Below are positions 12,572 through 33,205 of a stretch of 34,971 nt of DNA, in pieces (position 1 is the stretch's first letter; each line of letters starts with the position of its first letter). Made by a program: the position numbers and the translations under genes. Location: assembly GCA_016932575.1 (NCBI GenBank), contig JAFGCO010000025.1, positions 1 to 34,971 on the forward strand, written 5' to 3'. The DNA is from a bacterium (lineage in GTDB: Bacteria > Zhuqueibacterota > QNDG01 > JAFGCO01). The notes under the pieces are model-generated. The model did not search any database. It had not been told where the DNA came from and saw nothing but the letters and a program-made list of their open reading frames with translations.

Positions 12572-14047
12572 TCACTTGTCAAAGATATCCTGATATCGAT
12601 GGCTGGCCTCATCCCAGCGTTCGGTTTTCTGAGGCAGAAACTCTTGCATAGGGAACGCACGGGCGATGAGTGCACGGCCCTGTTCAATGGAGTCCAGTTG
12701 GCCGGCTGCGACCGCCTGGGTGATCACATTACCGAGAGCGGTTGCTTCGACGGGGCCGGCAATTACCGGAATACCGGTCGCGTCGGCTGTAAACTGATTG
12801 AGCATGGCATTTTGAGAACCTCCTCCGACCACATGCAGGATCTCGACGGGTTTCCCCTGAAGATGGTTAATGTCTTCGATCACCTGCCGGTAGCGCAGCG
12901 CGAGACTCTCCAGAATTGAACGGATAAACTGTCCCCGTGTTTCGGGAACCGGTTGATTCGACCGCCGGCAGAATGCCTGGATGGCTTTGACCATATCCGG
13001 CGGGTTCATGAAATCCGGATTATCCACATTAAGCAGGCTTTGAAACGGCGGGCTTTGATCTGCCTCGTTCAGCAGCGATTCATAGGATATGTCCCCGTCT
13101 TTTTGCCACTTCCTGCGGCATTCTTCCACCAGCCACATGCCGGTCACGTTTTTCAGGAACCGGATGGTACTGCGAACACCCCCTTCATTGGTATAATTCC
13201 GTTCCAGTGTGTCCGCGTTGATGAGCGGCGCCTGCAGCTCCACACCCAGCAGCGACCATGTTCCGGAACTGAGATAGGCCCAGGAATTTTTATCAGACGC
13301 AGGCACGGCAGCCACTGCAGCGGCCGTATCATGGGAAGCCGGGGCAATCACCCGCTTGATGGTCAGGCCTGTTTCTTCCCGGATTTCCTGCCTCAAATTA
13401 CCGATTACAGTGCCTGAATCGACAATCTCTGCCATCAGATGCCTTGGTAAATTCAGTTTTTCGAAGATGAGCGCATCCCATTGGCGGGCCTGTGCATTGA
13501 GCAACTGGGATGTGGAGGCGATGGAATATTCGGATCTGCGTTCACCTGTCATCAGAAAATGAAACAGGTCGGGCATGAACAGCAGGGACTCTGCTGCGTC
13601 CAGAACCGGATGCCCGGATTCTACCATACTCAACAGCTGATAGACCGAGTTGAGGGCCATAAATTGTATACCCGTAGCCGAATAAATTTCGGTCCTGGAG
13701 AATTTTTCAAAGGCGATTTCCATCATACCCTGCGACCGGCTGTCCCGATAGCAGTAGGGATTGCACAGGATGACATTATTGCGTCCCACAAATCCGAAAT
13801 CCACACCCCATGTATCCACACCGATCCCGGCAATTTCACGGTGACCGGCGTTTGTAATTTTTGACAAACCGGTTTTGAGTTCGTGAAAAAGCCCCAGAAG
13901 GTCCCACTGATAATGTCCCAGATTCAGGATCTGATGATTCGGAAAGCGATGGATTTCCTTTAGCCGGATGGATCGGTCAATTTCGGCCAGCATGATCCGG
14001 CCGCTCGACGCGCCAAAATCGGCGGCGATGTATTTTTGTGAAGACAT
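12572..14047 (-). CDS. rhaB: Rhamnulokinase (FGGY family)
   Basis: This 491-aa enzyme phosphorylates a ketose at O1 with ATP. It is closer to RhaB than to FucK: the N-terminus has ADFGASSGRIML, followed by the GIGVDTWGVDFGFV, YRDSRSQGM, GIQFMALNSVYQL and MPDLFHFLMTG signatures of rhamnulokinases. The catalytic Asp is in ASHDTAAAV near 237, with YLSSGTWSLLG and HVVGGGSQNAMLNQF (adenosine site) after it. It is the last gene of the BMC array, 224 bp after fucI. With only a fucose isomerase present, it presumably phosphorylates L-fuculose and perhaps L-rhamnulose. AGGGTGA lies just upstream of ATG 14047. The family is certain; the substrate range is inferred. Confidence 0.88.
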   Translation of the reverse strand: MSSQKYIAADFGASSGRIMLAEIDRSIRLKEIHRFPNHQILNLGHYQWDLLGLFHELKTGLSKITNAGHREIAGIGVDTWGVDFGFVGRNNVILCNPYCYRDSRSQGMMEIAFEKFSRTEIYSATGIQFMALNSVYQLLSMVESGHPVLDAAESLLFMPDLFHFLMTGERRSEYSIASTSQLLNAQARQWDALIFEKLNLPRHLMAEIVDSGTVIGNLRQEIREETGLTIKRVIAPASHDTAAAVAAVPASDKNSWAYLSSGTWSLLGVELQAPLINADTLERNYTNEGGVRSTIRFLKNVTGMWLVEECRRKWQKDGDISYESLLNEADQSPPFQSLLNVDNPDFMNPPDMVKAIQAFCRRSNQPVPETRGQFIRSILESLALRYRQVIEDINHLQGKPVEILHVVGGGSQNAMLNQFTADATGIPVIAGPVEATALGNVITQAVAAGQLDSIEQGRALIARAFPMQEFLPQKTERWDEASHRYQDIFDK

Positions 14048-14271: not shown

Positions 14272-16077
14272 CTATCCGTATAACGGACCGAAATTTTTAC
14301 AGGCCCGATAATCTGCACTTTCCAGGTTTTTTGTGCCAAACCCGTTCCATGCGGATGGCCGGAAGATGCGGTCCTCCGGCACATTGTGCATGTTTACCGG
14401 AATACGCAGCATGGCGGCAAGCGTGATCAGTTTATCCCCGATATGGCCATAACTGATGGCGCCGTGGTTGGCTCCCCAGTTCGCCATGACCTGGTACACA
14501 TCCTTAAATGCGCCCTCACCGGTTAAGATCGGTGCGAACCAGGTGGTCGGCCAGGTGGGGCTTGTCCTGCGGTTCAGCTTTTCATGCACATCTTCAGGAA
14601 GATCGACAGTATGGCCCTCGGCGATTTGGAGGACAGGACCCAGTCCCTTGACGAGATTCACCCGGCACATGGTCACAGGCATGTCGCCCTTAGTTAAAAA
14701 TTGGGAAGAAAAACCACCGCCCCGGAAATATTCCAGTTCTGCCGGGCACCATCGTGTGGCTTTCAGGCAGTTCTCTGCCTCTTCCGGTGTGATTTGCCAG
14801 AACGGTTTCATGGCCGGCTTTCCCTCAAGGGTCTGCTGACCGGTTCCATCCAGTGCTGTGGGTCCAGAATTGATCAGATGAATAATGCCTTGCCGGGCCT
14901 TTCCTGAGAGCTCATGTCCGGTCACACGTTTGACAGCAGCCGGGCTCCAGTAGGTTCTGACATCAGAGAAAATTTGCGCCGTATCTGTCAGCAGGTTCCC
15001 GAACAGCATGGCCACACCGTTCAATGAATCATTTTCAGTGGCTACGATATAGGGCTGTCTTATGCCGTTCCAGTCAAAGGAGGAATTCAGAATGGCTTCC
15101 AGAAAATCTCCATTGGGCCAATGATCTGTCCACTGACGCTGGCCCTGAAAACCCGACGCGAGGGCATTATGCCCCAGGGCTTCTTCACCCCATCCCAGTT
15201 TTTCCAAAACCGGATTGCCCGCCATCAGGTCTCGGGCAATGAGGGCCATTTTAACGATGATTTCCCACTCTTCATCTTTACGTTCGCGAGACGATTGTGT
15301 CTCAGGCTTATTGGTATCTTCTCCTTCCTGACAATTGGCTCTGACCCATTTTAATGCTTTTTCAAATTCATCCGGATCGTAAATGCCTTCTTCCATGCGC
15401 CTGATAAACTCCGACATATCCACATATTCATTCCTCATTCCCAGATAATCCGAGAAAAAATGATCGTCTGTCACAGAACCGGCAATGCCCATTGACACAG
15501 AGCCCATGGACAAATAGGATTTGCCGCGCATTTCTGCAACGGCCAGGCCGGCTTTTGCAAAGGCAAGAATTTTTTTCTGCACATCTTCCGGAAGGGAGGT
15601 ATCATTCATATCCTGTACGTCCCGGCCGTAAATGCCGAATGCGGGCAGCCCTTTTTGTGTATATCCGGCCAGGGCCGCGGCCAGGTAGACTGCACCCGGA
15701 CGTTCGGTACCGTTAAATCCCCAGACAGCTTTAGGCATCAGCGGATCTGAATCCATCACTTCTGTACCGTAACACCAGCAGGGCGTTACGGTCAGTGAAA
15801 CACCCACGCTGTTCCGCTGAAATTTTTCAGCGCAGGCGGCAGCTTCGGCCACGCCGCCGATACAGGTGTCGGCAATCACACATTCCACAGGCAGCCCATT
15901 GACATGACGCAACTGCCCGGTTATTAATTTGGCAGCAGATTTTGCCATATTCATGGTTTGATCTTCGAGGGCTTCACGGACACCCTTCCGGCGTCCGTCA
16001 ATCACCGGCCGGATACCGATTTTCGGCAGGGATCCTCTCAGGCGCTGCATGGGTGGATTTTGTTTCAGGCTGGGCAT
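14272..16077 (-). CDS. fucI: L-fucose isomerase
   Basis: This 601-aa cytoplasmic enzyme converts L-fucose to L-fuculose (family also acts on D-arabinose). Length matches E. coli FucI (591 aa). Residues that line up with the E. coli Mn2+ ligands Glu337, Asp361 and His528 are Glu348 ([10 protein letters not shown]), Asp372 ([12 protein letters not shown]) and His538 (WGANHG). The N-terminal [18 protein letters not shown] and the C-terminal [19 protein letters not shown] are also typical. AGGAG lies 6-7 nt before ATG 16077. It is 19 bp after the larA-like gene and surely co-transcribed. No L-rhamnose isomerase is in the window, so fucose is the substrate best supported by the sequence. Confidence 0.93.
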
Positions 16078-16096: not shown

Positions 16097-17374
16097 TTAT
16101 GACTGAACGATGACACTGACGCCATCCGGAATGACCGTAATTTTGGCTCTTTCGCCTTTGATTCTGCGGGCCAGATTCAGTGCATCCTCAATCGTAGGTG
16201 CATGATCCATGTGCATGGCTTTAATCATCTTCGGATCACATCTGTCCGTGACCAGTATCACTTTGAACCGATCCAGGATTCTGGCCAGGATCTGATATTC
16301 CCATTGGTCAGGCACAGTTTCATCTCTGGGAATCTGAAGCGCTTTTTCCAGCACTTCTTTTGGATTTTTTGCACTCGCCATGTTTTGAAAAAAAGATTCA
16401 CCTCCGTGTCCGTCACTGCAGGCAGCAGCCATGACAATCACTCCGTCTTCACTGACCGTGGCTTCTGCTGCCGTCATGCCTTTTACAGACTGGTAAATAT
16501 TCTGATCCAGCGGATATCCGCCATTGGTGGTAATCACAATATCCGCAGGCGCACGATCGACCTGGCACAGGCGGCTTAAAAATGTGCATCCTTCATGATG
16601 GGCCTTTTCCATGTCTCCGGCGACAGCATGAATAATTTCCTTCCTGTGATTGAGAATGACATTCAGGATGAATTTTAAATTGACCTGTCGCGCTGCAACC
16701 ATCATATCCCGGTGAATGGGATTGCCTTCCAGAATGCCGGTCCGGGATTTTTCGCATGCAATGAATTCGGAGCAGTGATTGGCAAGTACGGTTTTGTATC
16801 CGGCCACACCGGGAAGCACGCTTTTCCGCCCTCCGGAATAGCCTGCGAAAAAATGGGGTTCGATAAAGCCTTCGGCTATGAGCAGATCGGTCTTTACTGC
16901 CAGCTTGTTGATCCACAGCTCACCTCCCGAGGGCAGCGTACCCACATAAACCAGGGAATCATCATTTCTCGAGTCGTGAATGACAATCCGTTCCTCAGCA
17001 ACGATTTTTTCTCCGAACAGGGCAGTCATTTCCTCCGGCGTGGTTGACCGATGATAGCCGGTGGCGACCAGAATCGTGATTTCAATATCCGGTGCGCTCT
17101 CTCGTATGCGTTCCAGTAAAATCGGCAGTGTCAGCCAGCTGGGCACCGGGCGTGTGTGGTCGCTGGTAATGAGGGTTATTCGTTTTTTATTTGTGAGCAG
17201 AGATTCCAGTGAGACGCTGCCAATGGGATGATCCAGGGCCCTGTGAACAATCTCGGCCTGGCTCAGACCGGAGTTAAAGGTATTGACTCTGGATTCCAGA
17301 GATCCGGCAACCCGGTCATCCGGAATCTCAACGCGGATATGCGATTTGTGATAAGGAAGATTGAAAACAGCCAT
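16097..17374 (-). CDS. larA: LarA-family nickel-dependent lactate racemase
   Basis: This 425-aa protein belongs to the LarA family, which interconverts L- and D-lactate (and related 2-hydroxyacids) with a nickel-pincer nucleotide bound covalently to a Lys. Counting from ATG 17374, the key residues fall at the same numbers as in Lactobacillus plantarum LarA: His108 (VATGYHR), His174 (EPHFFAGYSGGRK), Lys184 and His200 (LANH). DHTRPVP near 72-78 is also conserved. This match supports ATG 17374 over the TTG four codons upstream. The cofactor-making LarB, LarC and LarE are not in the window and must be elsewhere. Sitting between the acetate-kinase-like gene and fucI, it probably racemises the L-lactate made from L-lactaldehyde. 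Other 2-hydroxyacid substrates are possible in this family. Confidence 0.88.
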   Translation of the reverse strand: MAVFNLPYHKSHIRVEIPDDRVAGSLESRVNTFNSGLSQAEIVHRALDHPIGSVSLESLLTNKKRITLITSDHTRPVPSWLTLPILLERIRESAPDIEITILVATGYHRSTTPEEMTALFGEKIVAEERIVIHDSRNDDSLVYVGTLPSGGELWINKLAVKTDLLIAEGFIEPHFFAGYSGGRKSVLPGVAGYKTVLANHCSEFIACEKSRTGILEGNPIHRDMMVAARQVNLKFILNVILNHRKEIIHAVAGDMEKAHHEGCTFLSRLCQVDRAPADIVITTNGGYPLDQNIYQSVKGMTAAEATVSEDGVIVMAAACSDGHGGESFFQNMASAKNPKEVLEKALQIPRDETVPDQWEYQILARILDRFKVILVTDRCDPKMIKAMHMDHAPTIEDALNLARRIKGERAKITVIPDGVSVIVQS

Positions 17375-17506
17375 AGTTGTTCTCAAAAAATAATGAAACC
17401 CAGGAATCTATTTAAAATACAAAATATTTTTAATATCCAAAACCCAAATATTGCCCGATGAAAATTGAATCTTTTTTTAACTTATATCCCGACTGCTGCA
17501 AAGGGA

Positions 17507-18667
17507 TCAGGCGAGTCGCCTTGCCACTTCCCGTGCCACGATCAGTTCTTCATTTGTGGGAATCACCGCAATTTTTATTTTCGAAATATCGGCGGATATC
17601 AATCCTTCTTCCGGATTGCTTTGATTTTTATCCTGATCCAGAACAATGCCCAGATGATTCATATTTTTCAGGATTTCCCTGCGGAGCCTTGATGAGTGCT
17701 GGCCCGCACCGCCTGTAAATACAATCACATCCGCGCTGTTCAAAACAGCCAGATATTCACCGATATACCGCTTCACCCCATAGGCAAAGGTTTTAAAGGC
17801 CAGTTCAGCTTTGGGATTCTGATCCATTGCTTCCTGAATATCCCGCAAATCTCCGCTTAAACCGGACAGCCCGAGAAGTCCCGCCCTGGAAATGAGACAA
17901 TCCCGCATCTGTTCCACAGAGAGTTTTTCTTTTTCCATAATATAGAGCAGGGCAAACGAATCCAGATCTCCCACCCTTTTGGCATTGATCAGTCCGCACT
18001 GGGCACTCATGCCCATTGAGGTGTCAATCGATTTTCCGTCCCTGATGGCACAAACGGACGCACTGCCCCCCAAATGGCAGGAGATGATTTTATCGGCATC
18101 GTAAACGGATTTGGCACGCTCAGCAATATACCGATGCGAAGCCCCGTGAAATCCGTATTTCCGGACGCCGTGTTTTTCAATCCAGTCATAGGGGACACCG
18201 TACATGGCTGCTTCGGCTGGCATATGCTGATGAAAGTGGGTTTCAAAAAGTCCGATCCTCGGGGTATTCGGCAGGACATTCTCAAATGCTTCGATGGCAG
18301 TGAGATAGACAGTATTATGAACCGGTACCAGAGGGGTATATGCTTTCATTCCATCCAGCACGTCTTTCGTGAGTTCCACACATCCGGTGACGTCTTTTGC
18401 ATGAACGGTCTTAAATCCCACGGCAGCGATTTCGTTCATGGAATATTTCTGCTGAAGGATGTTTGAGATTTGATTTACAGCCGTTATGTAATCGGGAATG
18501 GTCAGTGTTTTTTTCTTCTTATCCGACCTGCCGAATTGCCAGGAAACCGGGCTTTCCTGATCGCCGATTCGTTCCACGGCTGCCTGAAACAGAATGGTTT
18601 CATCTGTCATATCAAAGAGTTTACATTTGTATGATGTGCTGCCGGGATTGGCAATGAGAATTTTCAT
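17507..18667 (-). CDS. ackA: Acetate kinase-like enzyme (putative lactyl-/acyl-phosphate kinase)
   Basis: This 386-aa protein is of the acetokinase family, transferring phosphate from an acyl-phosphate to ADP. Family marks include the N-terminal NPGSTSYK, PVHNTVYL, FETHFHQHMP, YGFHGASHRY, DTSMG, GDLDS and FTGGAGQHSSRLR. Two conserved blocks diverge from ordinary AckA: HLGNGAS reads HLGGSAS, and the PLEGLxMGTRSGD block reads SAQCGLINAKRVGD, although the Arg is kept. In this pathway PduL would produce lactyl-phosphate, so the natural substrate may be larger than acetyl-phosphate; that is inference. AGGAG stands 6 nt before ATG 18667. It may act outside the shell, since no encapsulation helix is visible. 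Confidence 0.88.
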   Translation of the reverse strand: MKILIANPGSTSYKCKLFDMTDETILFQAAVERIGDQESPVSWQFGRSDKKKKTLTIPDYITAVNQISNILQQKYSMNEIAAVGFKTVHAKDVTGCVELTKDVLDGMKAYTPLVPVHNTVYLTAIEAFENVLPNTPRIGLFETHFHQHMPAEAAMYGVPYDWIEKHGVRKYGFHGASHRYIAERAKSVYDADKIISCHLGGSASVCAIRDGKSIDTSMGMSAQCGLINAKRVGDLDSFALLYIMEKEKLSVEQMRDCLISRAGLLGLSGLSGDLRDIQEAMDQNPKAELAFKTFAYGVKRYIGEYLAVLNSADVIVFTGGAGQHSSRLRREILKNMNHLGIVLDQDKNQSNPEEGLISADISKIKIAVIPTNEELIVAREVARRLA

Positions 18668-18818
18668 GGTATCTCCTTATTGGCCCTGTGAAAACATGAG
18701 AAGATTCATTATTTTGCATCTGGAATCATTGGGGTCAGGGGATTATGTTCTGATATTTGAATTATTGGCTGTCTGAAACAGCACGTGATCTTACAACTAA
18801 AATTAACTGTTTCATCCT

Positions 18819-19589
18819 TTATGATTTTTTCAGCCGTTCCATGACCAGCTTGGTAATTTCTGCGATCTGATCCTCACTGGGCCCGACGGATTGTGTTCCG
18901 CTGCATGATCCGTTTTCAGCACATGTGGTGACCCGGCCGGGGATGTTCATTTTTTCCCTGAGGTCCATGAGTTTCTTAACTTCCGGTCCGGGAATCATAT
19001 TCACATTGCCCAGTTGAATGGCGTTGAAAACAATCCTTGCGGAATGCTCCAGAGTTTCCATCCGATGATAGGCATTGATCAAATCGGTTCCAAGTGTAAG
19101 CGCCCCGTGATTGGCCAGCAGAATAGCGTCGCTTTTCTGCAGGTAGGGTTTGATGGAATCCGGAATTTCCATGGTAGATGGAGTCCCATAAGGTGCAATC
19201 GGCACGGCACCCAGGGTTAAAACTGCTTCCGGGAGCACACATTTGTCCAGCGGAATTCCGGCGACGGCAAAACTGGTGCAGACCGGCGGGTGGGCATGCA
19301 CAACAGACCGGATATCGTCCCGCTGCCTGTACACTTCCATATGCATTTTAACTTCACTGGACGGACGGTATGTCTTGGCGGAAGATAAAATTTTACCATC
19401 CATGTTCATTTCAATAATCATTTCCGGTGTCATAAATCCCTTACTGACACCGGTGGGAGTGGTCAACAGGCGGTTGTCATCGATACGTACGGTGATATTG
19501 CCATCGTTGGATGCGATAAACTCACGCTGCCATAACCGTTTCCCGACATCCAGTATCAGCTGTTTGATTTGCCACTCATTTGAAATCAT
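18819..19589 (-). CDS. Class II aldolase with C-terminal encapsulation peptide (fuculose/rhamnulose-1-phosphate aldolase)
   Basis: This 256-aa zinc aldolase cleaves L-fuculose-1-phosphate (and perhaps rhamnulose-1-phosphate) to DHAP and L-lactaldehyde. Glu79, His98, His100 and His161 have exactly the spacing of E. coli FucA ligands Glu73, His92, His94 and His155. FucA is about 215 aa; the extra tail here has a linker with Cys223 and Cys229, then an amphipathic helix of about residues 237-255 (SEDQIAEITKLVMERLKK), which looks like a BMC encapsulation peptide. This places the aldolase, and so lactaldehyde release, in the microcompartment lumen. AGGA precedes ATG 19589. The family and metal site are seen; encapsulation is inferred and agrees with PVM-type loci. 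Confidence 0.9.
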   Translation of the reverse strand: MISNEWQIKQLILDVGKRLWQREFIASNDGNITVRIDDNRLLTTPTGVSKGFMTPEMIIEMNMDGKILSSAKTYRPSSEVKMHMEVYRQRDDIRSVVHAHPPVCTSFAVAGIPLDKCVLPEAVLTLGAVPIAPYGTPSTMEIPDSIKPYLQKSDAILLANHGALTLGTDLINAYHRMETLEHSARIVFNAIQLGNVNMIPGPEVKKLMDLREKMNIPGRVTTCAENGSCSGTQSVGPSEDQIAEITKLVMERLKKS

Positions 19590-19701
19590 TTTTCATTCCT
19601 TTCGACATTTCTTGTTTACTGCAAGGCTATACTGAAAGCCGCTTGGTGTTTTCATTTTGCTGATGTCTCTTTTGCTGAATTGCCTTTACAATTTTCTCAG
19701 G

Positions 19702-19756
19702 TGACGCCGAGGGTCTCCTCCCGGCTGAAAAACATACCGGGACAGGCCTCAGGGGG
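19702..19756. repeat. Intergenic structured repeat, copy A
   Basis: This 55-bp copy lies between the GlcD-type gene and the aldolase gene. It contains TGACGCCGAGG, CCCGG...CCGGG pairing and GGCCTCAGGGGG. It is highly similar, with one 1-nt indel, to copy B at 24483-24536 in the same operon and same orientation. See the finding on this pair. Confidence 0.65.
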
Positions 19757-19763
19757 TAACAGT

Positions 19764-21176
19764 TTAATCAAAGATCTTTCCCGGATTCAGGATAGCACCC
19801 GGATCAAAGACTTTTTTAATTCCGCGCATGAGTTCGATCTGTTGGGGCTCCAGAAATGATTTCAGGTATTCTTTTTTTACGATACCGATACCATGTTCTC
19901 CCGAACAGATGCCTTGATATTTTTTACCGAGATCATGAAGCTCTTTGCGCACGGTCTGATATTTTTCGTCCCAGTTTTCGATTTCATGCCATTCGTCATT
20001 CTGCCATCGATATCGCATCAGGTGTGTATGGACATTGCCATCGGCTGCGTGTCCGTATGTCGGCAGCCACATATCTGACTTTTCAGCCACCGCATTCACC
20101 GAATCCACAAAATGGGCAATTTGAGACCGTGGGACCGTAATATCCAGTATCTCGAGCATATATGGACGCATGGCCTCATAAATACTGCTTCTGATATCCA
20201 AAATATCCCGTTGTTTGGATCTGGTATCAGCGGCAAATACTTCCAGAGCATTATGGTCCAGGCATACCTCGCTGATGGTTTCGGCCAGGCTCATGACCTC
20301 GTCTTCGGAGGTCCCGTCAACGATAATCATCAGGTGTGCGCTGCCCTGCGTACAGGGCCAGGTTTTATTCAGATGCTTGCCGCTTAGAATCGCAGTTTCC
20401 AGCTCCAGAAATTCGACAGCCATGGGCAGTATCTTTTTTTCAATGATTGCCGGCACTGTGCTGATTGCGTCATGCAGATTGTCATACGGCACAACCAGGG
20501 TCATGAGTTCCTTGGGCGGTGCCATGAGGGAAATGGTCGCTTTGGTGATGATGCCCAGTGTGCCTTCTGATCCAATCATCAAATGCATGAGGCTGTATCC
20601 GGTGGAATTCTTTACGAACTTGCCCCCCAAATTGACGATTTCACCGGTGGGGAGCACCACCTCGATACCGGTAACGAAATTTCGAATCACACCGTATTTC
20701 ACGGCCCGGGCACCACCTGCATTGGTGGCAATGACACCGCCGATGGTTGCTGTTTCGTCTCCGGGATGGGGAGGGAAGAATAAGCCCTTTTCTTCGATCG
20801 CCGGATAAAAATCCATAAGCGTCAAACCGGATTCCACAGTTGCCGTCAGATTATGGGTGTCAATTTCCAGGATCTGATGCATATTTTCAAATGTCATGAC
20901 CACACCGCCGAAAACAGGCACACACGCACCGCATAAACCTGTACCGCCGCCGCGGGCTGTGAGAGGGATATTTTCCTGATTGCACAGCTGCACGATTTTT
21001 GATACTGCTTCGGCATCGGGAGGTTTTACCACCACATCAGGATAAGATGAGATGTCATCCAGGCTGTACTCATCATGAGAATAATCAAGCAGTTCATCTC
21101 TTTCCGTTAAAATATTGCGGGCTTCCACAATTGTTTTCAACTGATCGATGATCGACTGATTTATTTTATGATACAT
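19764..21176 (-). CDS. GlcD-type FAD-linked oxidase (probable D-lactate dehydrogenase)
   Basis: This 470-aa flavoprotein is of the FAD-binding type 4 / GlcD family, which oxidises D-2-hydroxyacids such as D-lactate or glycolate. The FAD-binding half has PDVVVKPPDAEAVSKIVQLC, the loop TARGGGTGLCGAC (about 74-86), HPGDETATIGGVIATNAGG and RAVKYG. The C-terminal cap has TYGHAADGNVHTHLM, CSGEHGIGIVKKEYL and FDPGAILNPGKIF. No GlcE or GlcF partner is present, so electrons would go to another acceptor. GGAGG stands about 6 nt before ATG 21176. In this operon the most sensible job is oxidation of the D-lactate made by LarA to pyruvate. The family is certain and the substrate inferred. Confidence 0.88.
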   Translation of the reverse strand: MYHKINQSIIDQLKTIVEARNILTERDELLDYSHDEYSLDDISSYPDVVVKPPDAEAVSKIVQLCNQENIPLTARGGGTGLCGACVPVFGGVVMTFENMHQILEIDTHNLTATVESGLTLMDFYPAIEEKGLFFPPHPGDETATIGGVIATNAGGARAVKYGVIRNFVTGIEVVLPTGEIVNLGGKFVKNSTGYSLMHLMIGSEGTLGIITKATISLMAPPKELMTLVVPYDNLHDAISTVPAIIEKKILPMAVEFLELETAILSGKHLNKTWPCTQGSAHLMIIVDGTSEDEVMSLAETISEVCLDHNALEVFAADTRSKQRDILDIRSSIYEAMRPYMLEILDITVPRSQIAHFVDSVNAVAEKSDMWLPTYGHAADGNVHTHLMRYRWQNDEWHEIENWDEKYQTVRKELHDLGKKYQGICSGEHGIGIVKKEYLKSFLEPQQIELMRGIKKVFDPGAILNPGKIFD

Positions 21177-21227
21177 GGTCGGCCTCCAATGAATTCATCA
21201 TACTGGTTGATCAATGGCTATTATTGT

Positions 21228-21788
21228 TTACAACAAATCGCGCAACACATCCGGATGCGGATGGGTAATCAGCGTGGATCCTGCAAGCAGCCCTTCTTGC
21301 CTGAGAAATTCCAGGGACGGTCCCAGGGCCGATTTCAATGCATCAATATTGCCGGTCATCACAACCAATCCTTTACCGCCGATGGCCATGGCCACATGGA
21401 TGCGCAGCAGAACAATTTCTGCTTCTTTAACTGCAAAATCGGCCGCTTTGATGGCGGATGCCACAGAGAAGGTTTCAATAACGGCGAGGCCGTCCACTTC
21501 CGGGCTGTCCAGTGTGGTCGTTCCGGCAATGGCGGGAAAAATCCCGGCATCCACATTGGGAATCATCAGCGCGTTCACGATGGCAAATCCGCCTGTTTCC
21601 TTCGCCTGGCGGATACAGGATTCGACATCAGCAATTTCTCCCCGAACCAGAATGATATATTTTCCAGAGCATATCGTCCGGGCGAGCAGTTTTTCTATTT
21701 TTGTCATTTTCAATACGGCATCCTGAACTTCAAATCCTTTATACAGACTGGCGAGTTCAATGACGCCGATGGCGTTGGATGATTTCAT
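21228..21788 (-). CDS. pduT: BMC-T trimeric shell protein, PduT-like, with Fe-S pore Cys
   Basis: This 186-aa protein contains two BMC domains in tandem (about 5-90 and 98-180) and forms trimeric pseudohexameric tiles of the shell. It matches PduT along its length: AIGVIELASLYKGFEVQDAVLK, KLLARTICSGKYIILVRG, and in the second half LAVIETFSVASAIKAADFAVK and THPHP. Cys40 in RTICSGK corresponds to PduT Cys38 in KTICPGK, the residue that holds a [4Fe-4S] cluster in the central pore. Its ATG overlaps the stop of the PduS-like gene (ATGA), so the two are co-translated, as expected for partners in moving electrons through the shell. Confidence 0.93.
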   Translation of the reverse strand: MKSSNAIGVIELASLYKGFEVQDAVLKMTKIEKLLARTICSGKYIILVRGEIADVESCIRQAKETGGFAIVNALMIPNVDAGIFPAIAGTTTLDSPEVDGLAVIETFSVASAIKAADFAVKEAEIVLLRIHVAMAIGGKGLVVMTGNIDALKSALGPSLEFLRQEGLLAGSTLITHPHPDVLRDLL

Positions 21789-23083
21789 GTCTGCCTCTGT
21801 ATGACAATTTCACTTGCATTGATTTCTGTGATGGTTCCATTAACAGATGCATGGACCGGCACAGAAATGTCTCCGTCAGCCTCGGCGATGAGGTCGTTCT
21901 TTTGTACGTTTTGCCCTTTGGACACCACAGGTTTTGCCGGAGTGCCTATATGCTGTTTCAGGGGGATGCGTACTGTATCCGGTTCTATTTTCAGATCGTA
22001 TAACGGACCTTCGTCCCGATAGCGAATCACATCCAGGCGCTGTTTCAATTTTTCTGTCGGCACTTTTCGGAAATCCATCATCGGATGGGATTTTACCGGC
22101 AGCCCTTCCCATTTAGGCATGTCCCGGCTCAGTTTTTTTTCAATCATGGCAGCACCCCTTGGATCCAGACCTTCAGGGCAGCTGTACATGGTACAGAGGT
22201 TGCATTCGCAGCAAAAAGTATTGCCCGGATGCGCATAAGACATTTTCCCGTATGAGAACATACGATTTCGCATGGCGATCTCCGGTCGAACAGGATAACC
22301 CAACAGATATCGCGGACAAAGTTCAGTGCAAAAGCTGCACTGGTCACATGATGCTTTGGCCATGCGGTCTGTCTGAGACGGTGTATCATATCTTTTGTAC
22401 ATTGTCACGCAGGCATGATCGCCGGGGAGCAGAATGAGCCCGCCGGTTGTTTTTGTAATCACGGTTTCCATGCTTGATTCCAGAACACCCATCATTAATC
22501 CGCCGGAGCGTATTTGCACATGCCGGGCAGTGATTTCAACCTGGGATAACACATCTTTCAAAGAGGTGCCCACAGGGATTTTTACAGTAACAGGATTTCT
22601 CACTTCGCCTGCGATGGTAAGAAATTTTTCGGTCACGGGTTCTTCATGTGCCATATTGTACAATGTCTCCACATTCTGGACCACGCAACCGACGCTGATT
22701 GGTAATTCTCCCGGCTGGATGATCCGGCCTGTCGTTAAATAAACCAGTGTGACTTCATCGCCGGCAGGATAAAAATCGTCGATGGGAACAATGTCCATCA
22801 ATTGAGAAATTTTGTTTCTTATAAGGTCAATCAGCTTATGATGTTTCTTTTTGATACCGATAATACCCCGTTTGGCTCCGGTAATAGACAATGCTATCCG
22901 GAATCCCTCCATTACTGTATCTGTAAAATGTCGCAGCAGTTCTTTATCTTTATGCAGCAAAGGCTCACATTCGGCTGCATTCATGATTAAAAACTCGGGA
23001 CTGGCCTTCAGTTTAATATGGGTGGGAAATCCGGCTCCGCCTGCGCCCACGATGCCTTTATTTTTAATGTCCTGAATGGTCAT
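21785..23083 (-). CDS. pduS: PduS-like Fe-S flavoprotein (RnfC/NuoF-related NADH oxidoreductase)
   Basis: This 432-aa protein resembles PduS. An N-terminal glycine-rich loop GIVGAGGAGFPT (10-21), typical of the NADH/FMN-binding fold of complex I NuoF and RnfC, is followed by AAECEPLLHKD, a SLBB-like region, and two [4Fe-4S] motifs: CDQCSFCTELCP (Cys246, 249, 252, 256) and CCECNLCTMYSCP (Cys291, 294, 297, 302). The C-terminal part has a barrel-sandwich domain (IGTPAKPVVSKGQNVQ). In Pdu compartments PduS is a cobalamin reductase. No B12 enzyme is encoded here, so recycling NADH and passing electrons to the PduT pore cluster is the better guess. No clear ribosome site precedes ATG 23083. Confidence 0.9.
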   Translation of the reverse strand: MTIQDIKNKGIVGAGGAGFPTHIKLKASPEFLIMNAAECEPLLHKDKELLRHFTDTVMEGFRIALSITGAKRGIIGIKKKHHKLIDLIRNKISQLMDIVPIDDFYPAGDEVTLVYLTTGRIIQPGELPISVGCVVQNVETLYNMAHEEPVTEKFLTIAGEVRNPVTVKIPVGTSLKDVLSQVEITARHVQIRSGGLMMGVLESSMETVITKTTGGLILLPGDHACVTMYKRYDTPSQTDRMAKASCDQCSFCTELCPRYLLGYPVRPEIAMRNRMFSYGKMSYAHPGNTFCCECNLCTMYSCPEGLDPRGAAMIEKKLSRDMPKWEGLPVKSHPMMDFRKVPTEKLKQRLDVIRYRDEGPLYDLKIEPDTVRIPLKQHIGTPAKPVVSKGQNVQKNDLIAEADGDISVPVHASVNGTITEINASEIVIQRQT

Positions 23084-23095
23084 GGTTTTTTTATA

Positions 23096-23377
23096 TTAAC
23101 ACTTGATATCCCGGTAATCAAGATGATCCACAATAGCGACAATGAGGGTTCGTATGGGGGCCAGATCGAGTTGAAACAGGTCTCTGGCCACACCGGGTGC
23201 ACCTCCGCAAACGACTGTGTCTCCGATTCCGGCACCCACACAATCGACAGCCACCCATTCGTCACCTTTCTCAGTGCCATCCGGCAACACGGGCTGCACT
23301 ATAAATACATGCCGGTTTTGATAGGCGTCATGCTTCTCGGTTGCTGTTACAGTTTTTGTTATTTTTGCAAGAAACAT
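23096..23377 (-). CDS. BMC-P pentameric shell vertex protein
   Basis: This 93-aa protein is an EutN/CcmL-type BMC-P subunit; pentamers cap the vertices of the shell. The N-terminal strand MFLAKITKTVTATEKH, the mid DEWVAVDCVGAGIGDTVVCGGAPGVAR and the final RTLIVAIVDHLDY are typical. It is the most divergent of four paralogues here, with several Cys residues. It begins 5 bp after the previous BMC-P gene and ends 12 bp before the PduS-like gene. Confidence 0.92.
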   Translation of the reverse strand: MFLAKITKTVTATEKHDAYQNRHVFIVQPVLPDGTEKGDEWVAVDCVGAGIGDTVVCGGAPGVARDLFQLDLAPIRTLIVAIVDHLDYRDIKC

Positions 23378-23382
23378 AGGGC

Positions 23383-23646
23383 TTAATCCACATAATCTAC
23401 CAGTTCTACAATAGCTGCATTCACAGGAGCAATTCCTGAGTCAAATGCCTGGGCTGCGTCAGTGCTGGTTACATAGACAATTTTGTCTCCCACACCAGCC
23501 AGATTTTTTGGATCCGCAACGACAAGCGGGTGCCCGGTTTTCTGATTCCGGCCGGTCAGGGGTTGAGCTACAAAAAACCGGCACGATTTTAACTGAGGCA
23601 CCTTATTGGTGGCCCAGACCTGTCCGATGATTTTTCCAAGTTTCAT
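23383..23646 (-). CDS. BMC-P pentameric shell vertex protein
   Basis: This 87-aa BMC-P subunit has the classic pattern: MKLGKIIGQVWATNK at the start, KNLAGVGDKIVYVTSTDAAQAF in the middle and NAAIVELVDYVD at the end. Its ATG overlaps the stop of the preceding 104-aa BMC-P gene by 4 bp (ATGA). This is the closest of the four to canonical EutN and PduN. Confidence 0.93.
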   Translation of the reverse strand: MKLGKIIGQVWATNKVPQLKSCRFFVAQPLTGRNQKTGHPLVVADPKNLAGVGDKIVYVTSTDAAQAFDSGIAPVNAAIVELVDYVD

Positions 23647-23957
23647 TCTGGTTTTTCCTGTTTTTTCTGCGTCGAAACAGCAGCCGGATTTCTGTCGATT
23701 GTAACCTCATCAATCACAGCCATGATCACAGCATCGATGGGTGCATCTTTGGTCAGATCTGTCATTCGGGCGGCCGAACCGTAGGTGAGAAGAACAAAGT
23801 CGCCTTCACCGGCCTGAACCGCGTCTACGGCCACATGATAGGATTGGAGCGGTTTTCCGTTGTGATCCACCTGTTTGCAGAGCAACAGTTTTTTTCCTGT
23901 GAGTTTAGGATCCTTTTGCGTGGAAACCACCGTACCAATGACTTTTGCGAAAATCAT
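23643..23957 (-). CDS. BMC-P pentameric shell vertex protein with polar tail
   Basis: This is a 104-aa BMC-P subunit: MIFAKVIGTVVSTQKD, VAVDAVQAGEGDFVLLTYGSAAR and APIDAVIMAVIDEVTI. About 15 extra C-terminal residues (NPAAVSTQKKQEKPE) are polar and likely disordered. Its stop overlaps the next BMC-P start, so the two are translated together. Tail function is unknown. Confidence 0.92.
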   Translation of the reverse strand: MIFAKVIGTVVSTQKDPKLTGKKLLLCKQVDHNGKPLQSYHVAVDAVQAGEGDFVLLTYGSAARMTDLTKDAPIDAVIMAVIDEVTIDRNPAAVSTQKKQEKPE

Positions 23958-24110
23958 TTTTTCTCCAATATACGCTTGACTTTTTTTATGCAGACGAGAG
24001 CGGAATAGCAGAACAGCATTTTTTAACTCTCTCGTCCGTTTCTGACTTTACTGAATCCCTTTCACCTGAAGAATGTCCGGAGCTTTGTCAAAGGAATATA
24101 GAATAACGCG

Positions 24111-24386
24111 CTATTTCTTCCAGGTGGTTTTCAGTTCATCCACAGGTCTGGGAATCACGATTTCGGAAATCAAGTTTCCCACTGATGCGGCTGCAGTTCT
24201 TCCCGCTTCAATGGCTGACCGGACAGCAGCCACTTCGCCTTCAATGACAAAAGACACATACCCGTGCCCGATTTTGCGCCATTCGATCACGTTGACATTG
24301 GCTGCTTTGACGGCGGCGTCTGCGCCTTCAATAAGGCCAACAAATCCGTCGGTTTCAAGAACGCCAATTGATTTAATGGTTGGCAT
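24111..24386 (-). CDS. BMC-H hexameric shell protein (pore motif IGHG)
   Basis: This 91-aa single BMC-domain protein forms hexameric facets of the shell. It has SIGVLETDGFVGLIEGADAAVKAANV, then KIGHGYVSFVIEGEVAAVRSAIEAG, and ends IVIPRPVDELKTTWKK. The pore-loop motif carries His where the other two BMC-H proteins have Ser or Gly, which should alter pore chemistry. AGGAG is 8 nt before ATG 24386. Confidence 0.94.
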   Translation of the reverse strand: MPTIKSIGVLETDGFVGLIEGADAAVKAANVNVIEWRKIGHGYVSFVIEGEVAAVRSAIEAGRTAAASVGNLISEIVIPRPVDELKTTWKK

Positions 24387-24482
24387 GTATGGTTCTCCTA
24401 TTTTTTAATGCGATTAATGTTTGAAATACATTATTTGTCTCAGTTATTTTGAACCAGCATGAGAACACCCCTCTTCCTCGGC

Positions 24483-24536
24483 TGACGCCGAGGATCTCCC
24501 CCCGGCTTAAAGCATACCGGGGCAAGCCTCAAGGGG
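24483..24536. repeat. Intergenic structured repeat, copy B
   Basis: This copy lies between the aldehyde dehydrogenase and a BMC-H gene. Hairpins visible are CTCGGC-TGAC-GCCGAG (starting just before the repeat), CCCCGG...CCGGGG and CTCCCC...GGGGAG. It is nearly the same as copy A at 19702-19756 and likely forms a structure in the polycistronic mRNA. Confidence 0.65.
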
Positions 24537-24542
24537 AGAATA

Positions 24543-25970
24543 TTATGTGAATCTGAATGAGCCAACATTCATAATCCTTCTGATCCGGGTAAAGTGTCTG
24601 GGGCGGGTGATGCCTTCTCCGGTGGGTGAAGCGATCGTATACGAAAGTATGCCCTCGCCATCTTTCCCGCCGTCTCCCTGATAAGTACCGCCGTTTATGA
24701 CAAAAATCGCGCAATTCGATCGCTTTGCAAAATCGGTGGCCCGGTTCATATCCTTTGTAAACATGCTTGCCGTGTGATGATACCCATGTTCCGCTTCAAG
24801 GGCCCATTGAACGCCCTGTTCGTAGCTGCTGACTTTTACTACGGGAATAAACGGCATCATCTGCTCTTCCCGGACAAAAATATGGTCCTTGCGCGTTTCT
24901 CCGAACAGCAGGCTCACATCATCCGAAACGTTCAGCCCGATTGACTTGGCGAGAACACTTGCATTTCTTCCGACCAGGTCACGGCTGACAATATGCAGAT
25001 ATTTTTTCTTTTCAAAAGCCTTTTCTGCGAGTTGCTCAATCTGATTTGTATTGAGCTGAACGTTTTTCTGATTTTTCATGGCCTGCATAAAACCTGAAAA
25101 CACGCTTTCAATAACAAATATCTCTTTTTCAGCGGTGCAGAGGATGTTGTTGTCAAAGCCGGCGCTCAGTGTGATCCGCTCGGCAGCATACTCAAGATCG
25201 GCGGATTCATCAATAATCACCGGCGGATTGCCCGGCCCTGCAGCGATCACCTTTTTTTGAGTTTTCATGGCCGCCCGGACGACCGCAGGTCCGCCTGTGA
25301 TAGACAGCAATGCCACTTTATCGTGATGAAACACCTCATTGACTTTATCCAGACTGGGATCTTTGATTGAGCAAACCAGATTTTCCGGTGCACCGGCTTC
25401 TGTCAGCACCGCATTCATTTTTTTCACTGTATAATTTGATACATTTTTTGCAGATGGGTGCGGACAAAAGATGACCGAATTTCCGGCAGCAAGCATCATA
25501 ATAGCGTTATTGATCATGGTTTCGCTTGGATGCGTACTGGGTGTGATGGCGCCGATGATTCCATAGGGTGCGTATTCTTCCAAAGCGAGACCATTCTTGC
25601 CGGACCACGCTGTGGTCTCCAGATTTTCAATGCCGGGGGTTTCTGTCGCAGCGACCTGATGCTTGAGCAGTTTGTCCTGATAGCGGCCCATCCCGGTTTC
25701 TTCAAAAACCATTCGGGAGAGTTCTTCCTGTCTTTCAAGACCCATTTTCCGAATGGCGTCAATGAATATTTTTCTGTCCTGCAGTCCAAATTTTTGATAT
25801 GCCTCAAAAGCCTTTTCTGCCGCGTCGATTGCGTCGCTGACATTTTCGAACACACCCTCTTGATTCCCGGTATCAGGATTGAAACAGGATGGATCGATTC
25901 CTGGCTGAGGCGCCATGTTTTCAACCACACGGCGAACGATGGTGCTGATCTGTTCTTCAGTGAAGTCCAC
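24543..25970 (-). CDS. CoA-acylating aldehyde dehydrogenase with N-terminal encapsulation peptide (PduP-like)
   Basis: This 475-aa enzyme oxidises an aldehyde with NAD+ and CoA to an acyl-CoA; here the aldehyde should be L-lactaldehyde. Residues 1-20 (DFTEEQISTIVRRVVENM) form an amphipathic helix typical of BMC encapsulation peptides. The ALDH fold follows, with APYGIIGAITPSTHPSETMINNAI, GNSVIFCPHPSAK, ALLSITGGPAVV and AGPGNPPVIID. The catalytic Cys is Cys278 in NNILCTAEKE, as in PduP and EutE. The start is GTG 25970, with GGAG about 9 nt upstream; it follows a BMC-H gene by 12 bp. It is lumenal by inference, so its NADH must be recycled inside or its electrons exported. Confidence 0.92.
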   Translation of the reverse strand: MDFTEEQISTIVRRVVENMAPQPGIDPSCFNPDTGNQEGVFENVSDAIDAAEKAFEAYQKFGLQDRKIFIDAIRKMGLERQEELSRMVFEETGMGRYQDKLLKHQVAATETPGIENLETTAWSGKNGLALEEYAPYGIIGAITPSTHPSETMINNAIMMLAAGNSVIFCPHPSAKNVSNYTVKKMNAVLTEAGAPENLVCSIKDPSLDKVNEVFHHDKVALLSITGGPAVVRAAMKTQKKVIAAGPGNPPVIIDESADLEYAAERITLSAGFDNNILCTAEKEIFVIESVFSGFMQAMKNQKNVQLNTNQIEQLAEKAFEKKKYLHIVSRDLVGRNASVLAKSIGLNVSDDVSLLFGETRKDHIFVREEQMMPFIPVVKVSSYEQGVQWALEAEHGYHHTASMFTKDMNRATDFAKRSNCAIFVINGGTYQGDGGKDGEGILSYTIASPTGEGITRPRHFTRIRRIMNVGSFRFT

Positions 25971-25982
25971 TGGACAGTTCTC

Positions 25983-26276
25983 CTACGCTTTTTTCTCTTT
26001 GGGTTGAATTTCTTTAAAGACCGGAATCAGTTTTTGAGAAGGTCTCGGAATGACTGTCTGGCTGAGCACCTGGCCGATTTGCGAGGCTGATGCCACACCC
26101 GCTTCCACTGCAGCCTTGACCGCCGCGACATCACCTCTTACAATAATATTGGCCTTGCCGCCTCCGGCAATCAGATAATCAGCCAGCTTCACATTGGCCG
26201 CTTTGACAGCTGCGTCGGCTGCCTCAATGGCCGTGGCCAGTCCCATGGTTTCTATAACTCCCAGTGCGTCCTGCAT
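25983..26276 (-). CDS. BMC-H hexameric shell protein (pore motif AGGGK)
   Basis: This 97-aa BMC-H protein begins MQDALGVIETMGLATAIEAADAAVKAANV. The pore region is LIAGGGKANIIVRGDVAAVKAAVEAG, giving a Gly-rich pore. A charged C-terminal tail (FKEIQPKEKKA) extends past the domain. I place the start at ATG 26276, because GGAGG lies just upstream (GAAGGAGGAATCATG) and the 18 extra upstream codons have no BMC similarity. Confidence 0.94.
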   Translation of the reverse strand: MQDALGVIETMGLATAIEAADAAVKAANVKLADYLIAGGGKANIIVRGDVAAVKAAVEAGVASASQIGQVLSQTVIPRPSQKLIPVFKEIQPKEKKA

Positions 26277-26292
26277 GATTCCTCCTTCACGA

Positions 26293-26571
26293 CTATTTTT
26301 TAATTCCGAGCATTTGAAAGACATCCTCATGAGCCGACGGGATCACATTGGAACATATCAGCTCGCCGACTTTGGCGGCTGCTTCTGATCCGGCTTCGAC
26401 TGAGGATTTTACGGCCCCGACCTCACCACGTACAACAGCGGTGACCAAACCGCTTCCGATCTGGTGCTTTCCAACGAGATCCACATTGGCCGTTTTTATC
26501 ATTGCATCTATCGCAATGATATTACCGGTATTGGACCGGGTTTCAACAAATCCTAATGCAACACCTGGCAT
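26293..26571 (-). CDS. BMC-H hexameric shell protein (pore motif IGSG)
   Basis: This 92-aa BMC-H protein begins MPGVALGFVETRSNTGNIIAIDAMIKTANV and has the common pore motif QIGSGLVTAVVRGEVGAVKSSVEAG. The start ATG 26571 is fixed by GGAGG 5 nt upstream. A TTG four codons earlier is unlikely. It begins 12 bp after the small PduM-like gene and ends 16 bp before the next BMC-H gene. Confidence 0.94.
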   Translation of the reverse strand: MPGVALGFVETRSNTGNIIAIDAMIKTANVDLVGKHQIGSGLVTAVVRGEVGAVKSSVEAGSEAAAKVGELICSNVIPSAHEDVFQMLGIKK

Positions 26572-26583
26572 GGCTGCCTCCAA

Positions 26584-26889
26584 TCAGTTGATTGTTATTT
26601 TTATTCTCTTTTCCCTTAATAATTCTCTTGCTTTGGGCGTAATGACAGTTCCTTCGGGGATGACGACTTCTCCTGTTAATTCATGTAGTCTTTGAATATG
26701 ATTTTCAGTCAGGATCGGTGTTTTGTATTTGGACATATCCGGTTTTTCGATCCGCGTCTGATGAATACTGTTTTGGTTTTGTGATGCAAGGGTTCCGTCT
26801 TTTACCAAAATGGTTATATTCTGGCGGCTGAGTTCCCGGATGACTTCACGGGTTATTTTCCGAATTAATTCTTCAATCGCTATCTGCAT
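26584..26889 (-). CDS. Small BMC-associated protein, PduM-like, unknown function
   Basis: This is a 101-aa protein of no family I can name with certainty. Residues 1-24 (MQIAIEELIRKITREVIREL) make a charged amphipathic helix like BMC encapsulation peptides. A polar low-complexity linker (about 32-50) follows. The C-terminal 45 residues (LTGEVVIPEGTVITPKARELL then REKRIKITIN) resemble the ends of PduM and the N-terminal parts of EutT and EutQ, which share a T-P-x-A-x-E-hydrophobic pattern before a short Ile-rich strand. Its place inside the shell operon, 12 bp before a BMC-H gene and 113 bp after a BMC-P gene, supports a role in assembly or cargo binding. No clear ribosome site is seen. Confidence 0.8.
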   Translation of the reverse strand: MQIAIEELIRKITREVIRELSRQNITILVKDGTLASQNQNSIHQTRIEKPDMSKYKTPILTENHIQRLHELTGEVVIPEGTVITPKARELLREKRIKITIN

Positions 26890-27002: not shown

Positions 27003-27290
27003 TTATCTTTTAAACCAGTCTCTTTTTTTGCCTGATACAGTCTCCACGATGCCCACAATCGAATTGTCTGTGCTGGTTCCTTTTGTTTTGGATGTCATCC
27101 TGGCGGATGACGATGAACATACCAGTACAATATCATCCAACCGGGCATTCACAGTATCTGTGCTGGTTATTGTTTTACCGGTGGGCTTCAGTTTTTCATC
27201 CAATTGATCGACAATGAGAAGGCGGAGGCCCTCCAGTTTGCCTTCCTTGCGCGTTGAAACAACCTGACCGATGACTTTTGCGAATTGCAT
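27003..27290 (-). CDS. BMC-P pentameric shell vertex protein with basic tail
   Basis: This is a 95-aa BMC-P subunit: MQFAKVIGQVVSTRKEGKLEGLRLLIVDQLD, TVNARLDDIVLVCSSSSARMT and NSIVGIVETVSG. The C-terminus adds a short basic end (KKRDWFKR). It is separated from the other three BMC-P genes and lies 9 bp after pduL. GAGGG precedes ATG 27290 by about 5 nt. Confidence 0.92.
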   Translation of the reverse strand: MQFAKVIGQVVSTRKEGKLEGLRLLIVDQLDEKLKPTGKTITSTDTVNARLDDIVLVCSSSSARMTSKTKGTSTDNSIVGIVETVSGKKRDWFKR

Positions 27291-27299
27291 GGTACCCTC

Positions 27300-28063: not shown

Positions 28064-29008
28064 TTATGTTTCTAATAAATATTCTGCGACTTGTTCATCT
28101 GTAATAAGGACATTGAAGTATCTGCCCAGCAGTCCTGCATGAATCACTGTCTTTTTATCCATTCCTCCGGCTACTGCGATTGCGTGTGAAACATTTTTCA
28201 GATCATTTAATTCAATCGCGACTGTCCGGGCATCCAGTTCCGGCCAGCAAAGATTGCCCTCATTTGAAATCATACGGGAACATATATCACCGACTGCTCC
28301 CAGTTGATTGAGATACTGTACTTCTTCCGGATTAAAATATTCCGCCTGAATCATCAGTGAATCCGGTTTGAATACACCCATTGAACAAAGAATAATATCC
28401 GCCTGTCTGGCAAGATCCATGCTTTCCCTGATTTTTTTATCTGAAATCATGGCTTGTTTCACTTGTGCACTATCCACAATGGCCGGCAGCAGCAGAAGAT
28501 ATGACCGTGCACTGTAATTTTCACTGATACGCTGTGTAATTTCACCTGCATGGGGATCGAACTCGCCATGGGTAATGCCGCCGACGATTTGAATGACTTT
28601 CATATTTTTTACCGGCCTGGGCGTCAGGTGATTCACAACCTGACACATGGTCGTACCCCAGGAAACCCCAAGAATACAATCGTCAAAAATCAGTTCATTC
28701 AGATAACGGGCCGCGGCCCAGCCGAGCCTTTTTTTGGTCTTTTGTTCTGATTGGATATCTGCAGGTACAACGATTACTTTTTTTAAATGATATTTTTCTT
28801 TAAGATTCTGCTCGAGACGGCTTCCTTGACGGGTCGGGTCAATAATTTCAATCCGGACAATTCCCTGATCACGTGCCTGCTGAAGCAGACGGGAGATACT
28901 GGGTCTTGAGGTTCCCAGCCTGTCGGCAATTTGCTGCTGGCTCATCTGATGATCATAATAAAGACGGGCCGTTTCAACAAGGAGTGATGTGTTATTAACC
29001 GAATTCAT
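28064..29008 (-). CDS. SorC/DeoR-type sugar-responsive transcription regulator
   Basis: This 314-aa DNA-binding protein is of the SorC family. The N-terminal helix-turn-helix is at about 22-50 (MSQQQIADRLGTSRPSISRLLQQA). The C-terminal sugar-binding domain has LGVSWGTTMCQVV, IQIVGG, DIILCSMGVF, GAVGDICSRM and the ending AIAVAGGMDKKTVIHAGLLGRYFNVLITDE, which in this family binds phosphorylated sugars. As first gene of the BMC array, 17 bp before pduL, it most likely regulates the array and itself through the TGAAC palindromes at 29019-29053. The effector could be fuculose-1-phosphate or a related intermediate. No Shine-Dalgarno site is seen before ATG 29008. Confidence 0.9.
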   Translation of the reverse strand: MNSVNNTSLLVETARLYYDHQMSQQQIADRLGTSRPSISRLLQQARDQGIVRIEIIDPTRQGSRLEQNLKEKYHLKKVIVVPADIQSEQKTKKRLGWAAARYLNELIFDDCILGVSWGTTMCQVVNHLTPRPVKNMKVIQIVGGITHGEFDPHAGEITQRISENYSARSYLLLLPAIVDSAQVKQAMISDKKIRESMDLARQADIILCSMGVFKPDSLMIQAEYFNPEEVQYLNQLGAVGDICSRMISNEGNLCWPELDARTVAIELNDLKNVSHAIAVAGGMDKKTVIHAGLLGRYFNVLITDEQVAEYLLET

Positions 29009-33194: not shown

Positions 33195-33205
33195 AAGCAT
33201 TTGTC

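Follow-up and report, generated by a model that had tools for sequence, protein, structure and literature searches.

The stretch of DNA analysed here (34,971 nucleotides; hereafter, the window) is an entire contig, C41, of a 4.41 Mb genome that is 94.5% complete. An operon confined to the reverse strand (about 12572-29008) runs from a regulator through to an FGGY kinase in the order: DeoR/LsrR-type regulator, PduL, BMC-P, a small helix-tagged protein, two BMC-H, acylating aldehyde dehydrogenase, BMC-H, three BMC-P, PduS, PduT, GlcD-like FAD enzyme, class II aldolase, acetate kinase, LarA, L-fucose isomerase and FGGY kinase (Table 1). The operon has a class II aldolase (PF00596) inside the set of shell genes, together with an acylating aldehyde dehydrogenase, PduL and both BMC-H and BMC-P shell proteins, and a signature radical enzyme is missing. 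Among the named relatives in our scan, a metagenome bin of candidate division KSB1 (L068) is the closest, with 78% identity in the aldehyde dehydrogenase. We therefore class the locus as an aldolase-type, PVM-like BMC operon that belongs to a relative of candidate division KSB1.

Table 1. Coordinates of the genes of the BMC operon, with the basis of each assignment
Feature	Position	Strand	Basis
FGGY sugar kinase, fuculokinase/rhamnulokinase type	12572..14047	-	FGGY_N + FGGY_C
L-fucose isomerase FucI	14272..16077	-	Fucose_iso_N1, N2 and C
Lactate racemase LarA	16097..17386	-	Lar_N 1.2e-70, LarA_C 2.6e-74
Acetate/propionate-type kinase AckA	17507..18667	-	TIGR00016 above cut-off
Class II aldolase, fuculose/rhamnulose-phosphate type, signature enzyme	18819..19589	-	PF00596 3.9e-48
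GlcD-like FAD-linked oxidoreductase	19764..21176	-	TIGR00387 1.2e-103; FAD_binding_4 + FAD-oxidase_C
PduT-like trimeric shell protein, tandem BMC domain	21228..21788	-	TIGR02526 3.7e-30, below curated cut-off; PDB 3pac
PduS-like FMN / 2x[4Fe-4S] NADH dehydrogenase, RnfC family	21785..23083	-	Pfam domains, conserved residues, model
BMC-P pentamer shell protein a	23096..23377	-	CcmL/EutN family matches
BMC-P pentamer shell protein b	23383..23646	-	CcmL/EutN family matches
BMC-P pentamer shell protein c	23643..23957	-	CcmL family match 6.3e-30
BMC-H hexamer shell protein a	24111..24386	-	BMC domain
CoA-acylating aldehyde dehydrogenase, GTG start, N-terminal encapsulation helix	24543..25970	-	PRK15398 subfamily 6e-178, above cut-off
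BMC-H hexamer shell protein b; start probably ORF residue 19	25983..26330	-	PF00936 7e-27
BMC-H hexamer shell protein c	26293..26583	-	PF00936 1e-23
Small cargo/scaffold-like protein, N-terminal encapsulation-type helix	26584..26889	-	weak TIGR02536 1.2e-5
BMC-P pentamer shell protein d	27003..27290	-	CcmL family match 3.8e-19
PduL phosphotransacylase; N-terminal CQECGAC, then encapsulation helix	27300..28046	-	PTAC 1.5e-66; conserved N-terminus
DeoR/LsrR-type regulator + sugar-binding domain	28064..29008	-	NF053881 7e-102; Sugar-bind PF04198

The aldehyde dehydrogenase, PduL and the small protein each carry an N-terminal encapsulation-type helix, and the aldolase a C-terminal one (tail IAEITKLVMERLKKS); none was seen at the termini of PduS, PduT and the GlcD-like enzyme when these were inspected in the translations. 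The small protein, kept in nearly all loci of the window's type (type A) and outside any Pfam family, may serve as a scaffold. PduL begins with MVNQKGLASYCQECGAC, ahead of the encapsulation helix. The CxxCGxC pattern is kept in KSB1-type PduLs, and CxxCxxC recurs in PduLs of type B (L081, L083, L084) and type C (L127, L089) loci, so that this N-terminal motif could possibly be a metal or cluster site on the phosphotransacylase. Conserved cysteines are also found in the aldolase linker that precedes the C-terminal helix (CAENGSC here, CxxC...C in type B). A promoter and terminator scan scored no better than shuffles. Genes for a GH5 glycosidase with a T9SS sorting domain and an alpha-L-rhamnosidase-like BNR_4 protein (31218-34718, forward strand) adjoin the operon and are consistent with a degrader of deoxysugar polymers.

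The pduS and pduT genes, encoding 432 and 186 residues, respectively, overlap by 4 bp on the reverse strand, in agreement with the initial annotation made from the sequence alone. PduT has two BMC domains and aligns over its full length with the solved PduTs 3pac (3.8e-37) and 3n79, while missing the TIGR02526 equivalog cut-off (104.9 vs 250.3 bits). Its Cys40, within the pore motif TICSGKY, is aligned with the cluster cysteine (TICPGK) of the solved PduTs and is invariant among 16 aligned PduTs; based on the domains and this aligned cysteine, Cys40 is predicted to be a [4Fe-4S] ligand in the pore. PduS carries all four PduS Pfam domains, namely, Complex1_51K, SLBB (below its Pfam cut-off), Fer4_17 and RnfC_N. 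The spacing of its two cluster motifs, C246xxC249xxC252xxxC256 and C291xxC294xxC297xxxxC302, is identical to that of the eight cysteines in the published Citrobacter PduS. Across 23 relatives, all eight cysteines are invariant and the FMN loop G13xGGAGFP is invariant or nearly so. The initial annotation had taken Cys40 and both [4Fe-4S] motifs to be kept, and these alignments bear it out. The best structural match of the PduS AlphaFold model (mean pLDDT 91.5) is the NADH-bound RnfC of Acetobacterium (9eri), followed by complex I NuoF-type subunits; the predicted fold is RnfC/NuoF-like and that of an electron-transfer flavoprotein; it lacks any alcohol dehydrogenase domain.

Pfam and NCBIfam scans of the genes in the window detected no PduCDE, glycyl radical enzyme or alcohol dehydrogenase, as had been stated for the locus initially, and, with E. 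coli Mdh as an additional query, no NAD+ regenerator of the lactate/malate dehydrogenase type in the operon. From such gene content it had been proposed that NADH made by the acylating aldehyde dehydrogenase has no lumenal sink and that the pair may pass its electrons through the shell, a proposal that the present analysis supports in part. Genome-wide, B12 diol dehydratase (PF02286) is absent, with the Ilyobacter positive control detected, and so are both glycyl radical enzyme domains (PF02901 and PF01228), for which controls were likewise detected. The single full Fe-ADH gene, located on contig C7, has an ordinary length and carries no BMC tag, whereas a second Fe-ADH match is weak and under the family cut-off. 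Four Zn-ADH genes, all on contigs other than that of the BMC, are of ordinary length and lack an encapsulation peptide. Thus, for radical enzymes and for Fe- and Zn-ADHs the absence of an evident lumenal sink stands; the search for a lumenal reductase covered these two alcohol dehydrogenase families in a genome 94.5% complete, and a lumenal lactaldehyde reductase of another family, such as the aldo-keto or short-chain reductases, may be present. The genome also encodes an RnfC homolog of an Rnf complex on contig C24. BMC-domain proteins genome-wide consist of the three BMC-H and PduT, the sole BMC-T found, and therefore no large gated trimer is seen for the passage of NADH. Absence of glycyl radical enzymes was rejected as a general trait of carriers, because 28 of 45 genomes have a Gly_radical protein (which may include pyruvate formate-lyase), and a clean absence is thus limited to the genome of the window.

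The gene content points to a route from L-fucose, and perhaps also L-rhamnose, via lactaldehyde, lactyl-CoA, lactyl-phosphate, L-lactate and D-lactate to pyruvate. The aldolase would yield DHAP and L-lactaldehyde, which the lumenal aldehyde dehydrogenase would convert to lactyl-CoA and NADH. PduL would then release CoA, and AckA, outside the shell, would yield ATP and L-lactate, to be taken to pyruvate by LarA followed by the GlcD-like enzyme, probably a cytosolic D-lactate dehydrogenase. Lactaldehyde and lactyl-CoA would accordingly reside in the lumen, with lactate as the product. GlcD, alone or together with LarA, adjoins the BMC core in the window, L068 and L064, and one or both of these genes do so in L067; LutABC genes adjoin the same core in L041, L046, L061, L073, L095 and L099. 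LarA and the GlcD-like enzyme of the window thus replace the LutABC of relatives, and the two are unrelated routes of lactate oxidation. Such swapped lactate modules support lactate rather than propanediol as the product and, therefore, a net surplus of lumenal NADH. The adjacent genes for the GlcD-like enzyme, LarA and acetate kinase, left unused in the initial annotation, suggest that the aldehyde is taken fully to the oxidised side. As the aldehyde would end as an oxidised product, NADH could not be balanced by reducing half of it.

An alignment scan with the aldehyde dehydrogenase gave 80 named loci; with loci of the same phylum added, the set whose gene content was typed came to about 90 distinct loci. 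Both PduS and PduT are present in 26 of 38 aldolase-type BMC loci and neither in 12 (two of which, L082 and L094, are truncated by contig ends), and no locus has a single one of them (Fisher p = 3.7e-10 for the 38 loci, with kinship among loci overstating their independence). PduS lies directly upstream of PduT in all 47 pairs collected, the genes mostly touching or overlapping, and this identical order argues against the observed pair being due to chance. In the fetched stretches of the 38 aldolase loci, matches to diol dehydratase, glycyl radical enzyme, Fe- or Zn-ADH and malate-dehydrogenase-like proteins number zero. Carriers of the pair include KSB1, Calditrichota, Ignavibacteriota, Kryptoniota, Bacteroidota, Acidobacteriota, Latescibacterota and CSSED10-310. 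In the phylogenetic tree, PduS proteins of aldolase BMCs form a group of their own (support 99/99).

The pair is missing from five intact loci that belong either to type A, like the window, or to the related type B (L070, L095, L118, L137, L139). In four of these five genomes, a PduT homolog is encoded on another contig with PduS directly beside it (L149-L152), and no dehydratase is found near these satellite pairs; in the fifth (L118, type B) PduT is absent genome-wide. Two of the satellites (L151 and L152, from Ignavibacteriota/Bacteroidota genomes) adjoin genes for xanthine-dehydrogenase-type molybdoenzymes. Two further two-gene pairs (G036, G037) have no shell genes in the fetched stretch. 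Because the pair is all-or-none in aldolase loci and is retained in satellites, we do not consider it to be a B12 relic. PduT is also absent genome-wide from five genomes with type C loci (L089, L096, L097, L108, L127; Gemmatimonadota/Latescibacterota), and the type C loci that were opened up have no dehydrogenase within the locus. These are genuine counterexamples to the pair being mandatory: such a BMC can run without it, and the five genomes, together with L118, speak against its necessity as a sink. Substitution of the missing pair by a dehydrogenase was rejected, since no alcohol or lactate/malate dehydrogenase was found in any of nine pair-less loci. Oxygen or respiration as the factor deciding retention of the pair was rejected too, as COX1 is present in 30 of 45 genomes, pair-bearing and pair-less alike; the PduT-negative type C genomes are all COX1-positive, as are many PduT-positive ones, which amounts to a weak trend. 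Weak PduT-profile matches with internal stops resemble adjacent BMC-H genes read jointly and were not counted.

We consider it somewhat better than an even chance that the window encodes a PVM-like metabolosome in which PduS and PduT export electrons from lumenal NADH. In the proposed mechanism, PduS, docked at the inner face of PduT, would oxidise lumenal NADH via FMN and its two [4Fe-4S] clusters, and the pore cluster of PduT, also [4Fe-4S], would receive single electrons from PduS and give them up to an acceptor outside. Since there is no B12 or radical enzyme to serve, oxidation of NADH inside with release of electrons outside is the simplest role for the pair, and export appears to be its best-supported one. 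Supporting data obtained here are the gene content, the intact cofactor motifs, the predicted NADH-dehydrogenase fold, the obligate pairing and the lack of radical enzymes. Reduction of FMN and a cluster by NADH and the binding of PduS to PduT are known from the Citrobacter PduS, in which electrons pass from NADH to FMN and [4Fe-4S] and which co-purifies with PduT (PMC2982820). The outward direction of the flow and its acceptor are presumed. The measured potential of the PduT cluster, +99 mV, is downhill from NADH and implies that the acceptor must be of high potential, excluding ferredoxin or NAD+ unless the present PduT lies far lower; no high-potential acceptor is linked in the locus and COX1 is absent from the genome. 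One study in Listeria associated flavin-based electron transfer with an excess of NADH and a shell protein resembling PduT, without direct proof. A stronger version of the proposal, that in anaerobic aldolase BMCs PduS-PduT is the main NAD+ regenerator, replacing alcohol dehydrogenase and wired to a cytosolic or membrane acceptor while all aldehyde goes to lactate and pyruvate, we put forward tentatively, with the balance tipped against it.

Among the alternatives, the one that survives best, though it is unlikely, is that NADH is re-oxidised otherwise (the shell may leak, dehydrogenases in the cytosol may act, or a lumenal reductase may have escaped recognition) and that the pair is auxiliary, for example, a dump for excess electrons. 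The five type C genomes that manage without the pair, and the lack of a dehydrogenase in the type C loci that were opened up, are in line with it; nevertheless, the pair is an obligate two-gene unit in many lineages, satellites included, and the pores available here besides PduT are those of small BMC-H only. It is improbable that PduS is a lumenal reductase which uses NADH to convert lactaldehyde to 1,2-propanediol, recycling NAD+ inside, with PduT as a mere anchor. Such a role was suggested in print for the PduS-like protein of C. phytofermentans GRM5 (PMC3557285) and again for SPU loci (PMC4207490), and the locus shows no other reductase. However, the RnfC/NuoF-like fold predicted for PduS has no alcohol dehydrogenase domain, the conserved pore cysteine of PduT would be left without a role, and the linked lactate oxidation better matches full oxidation.

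Less probable again is that electrons flow inward and the pair keeps lumenal thiols or Fe-S sites, such as CxxCxxC in PduL or the aldehyde dehydrogenase's catalytic cysteine, reduced: the PduL N-terminal CxxCGxC and cysteine-rich aldolase linkers do recur in such loci, but CxxCxxC-type motifs are also found in type C PduLs without PduS/PduT, whereas Ignavibacterial PduLs that occur with the pair lack this motif. Retention by PduS of its Pdu role as a cobalamin reductase is very improbable: homology with PduS and a PduO-type cobalamin adenosyltransferase encoded at C13:11189 would fit, but this gene is unlinked to the BMC, the locus gave no match to PduO, EutA or another B12 enzyme, and the genome is without B12 diol dehydratase. 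Finally, that PduS/PduT is a non-functional leftover from a GRM5- or Pdu-like ancestor, along the lines of the remnant explanation raised for SPU PduS by Axen et al. 2014 (PMC4207490), can hardly be upheld given that the cofactor residues are all invariant across many lineages, the pair is always adjacent and the satellites keep it.

The idea that PduS-PduT exports electrons dates from 2010 (PMC2982820); it was taken up again for B12-free BMCs in 2014 (PMC4207490) and covered by a review in 2019 (PMC6325248). Both the presence of PduS/PduT in BMCs without B12 enzymes and a possible role in export are therefore already in print. A literature search, leaving out one KSB1/LCP-89 microcompartment paper, returned no publication on a KSB1 BMC of this kind. 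As far as we have checked, the all-or-none pairing, the satellites, the PduS clade of aldolase BMCs, the swap of lactate modules and the recurrent PduL cysteine motif are added here. Movement of electrons across the shell by PduS/PduT has been an open proposal since 2010, and the hosts studied so far mostly have a B12 or glycyl radical enzyme that gives PduS an alternative job. The window and its relatives remove this confounder, with a genome in which no radical enzyme was detected, no other trimer, and a pathway whose sole yield of reductant in the lumen is NADH, and the locus is thus a clean natural case for testing export through the shell. If export is true, it would be an exception to the rule that metabolosomes need an internal alcohol dehydrogenase for NAD+ recycling, and a natural template for wiring shell-enclosed enzymes to the exterior.

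PVM and PVM-like BMC loci were described by Axen et al. 2014 (PMC4207490) and Sutter et al. 2021 (PMC8217296). The 2014 catalogue lists PVM-like loci that lack an alcohol dehydrogenase, with Melioribacter roseus in the PVM-like set (PMC4207490). The gene order of the M. roseus bin (L076) is that of the window. In the characterised PVM locus, NAD+ is presumed to be regenerated by a lactate/malate dehydrogenase encoded there, whereas the window has no such gene, and hence is not a PVM (Planctomycetes/Verrucomicrobia) locus in the strict sense, but has PduS/PduT, LarA and GlcD. The PduS/PduT of the Pdu metabolosome (Parsons et al. 2010, PMC2982820) are alike in domains, cysteine spacing, gene order and pore cysteine. 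In contrast to a Pdu locus, the window has no diol dehydratase (PduCDE; PF02286 is absent) or linked PduO, and its PduS is about 35-37% identical to the Pdu type and falls into a separate clade. The GRM5 fucose/rhamnose BMC of Clostridium phytofermentans (PMC3557285) shares the aldolase, PduL, aldehyde dehydrogenase, DeoR-family regulator, PduS and PduT, yet it has a glycyl radical propanediol dehydratase, by which GRM5 is defined, and an alcohol dehydrogenase, neither of which was found in the system of the window. Among DeoC-type (SPU) loci of Bacteroidota, six (L112, L113, L117, L123, L132, L140) have a PduT-like trimer and no PduS match in the fetched stretch; those trimers whose motif was read retain the pore cysteine, which is lost in L130 and L134. 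Atribacteria SPU BMCs with PduS (Axen et al. 2014) likewise combine PduS/PduT with a locus free of B12 and glycyl radical enzymes, an arrangement that we also observed in SPU-type loci L091, L126, L129, L133 and L136, but their signature enzyme is DeoC, their aldehyde is acetaldehyde and their PduS forms a separate group in the tree.
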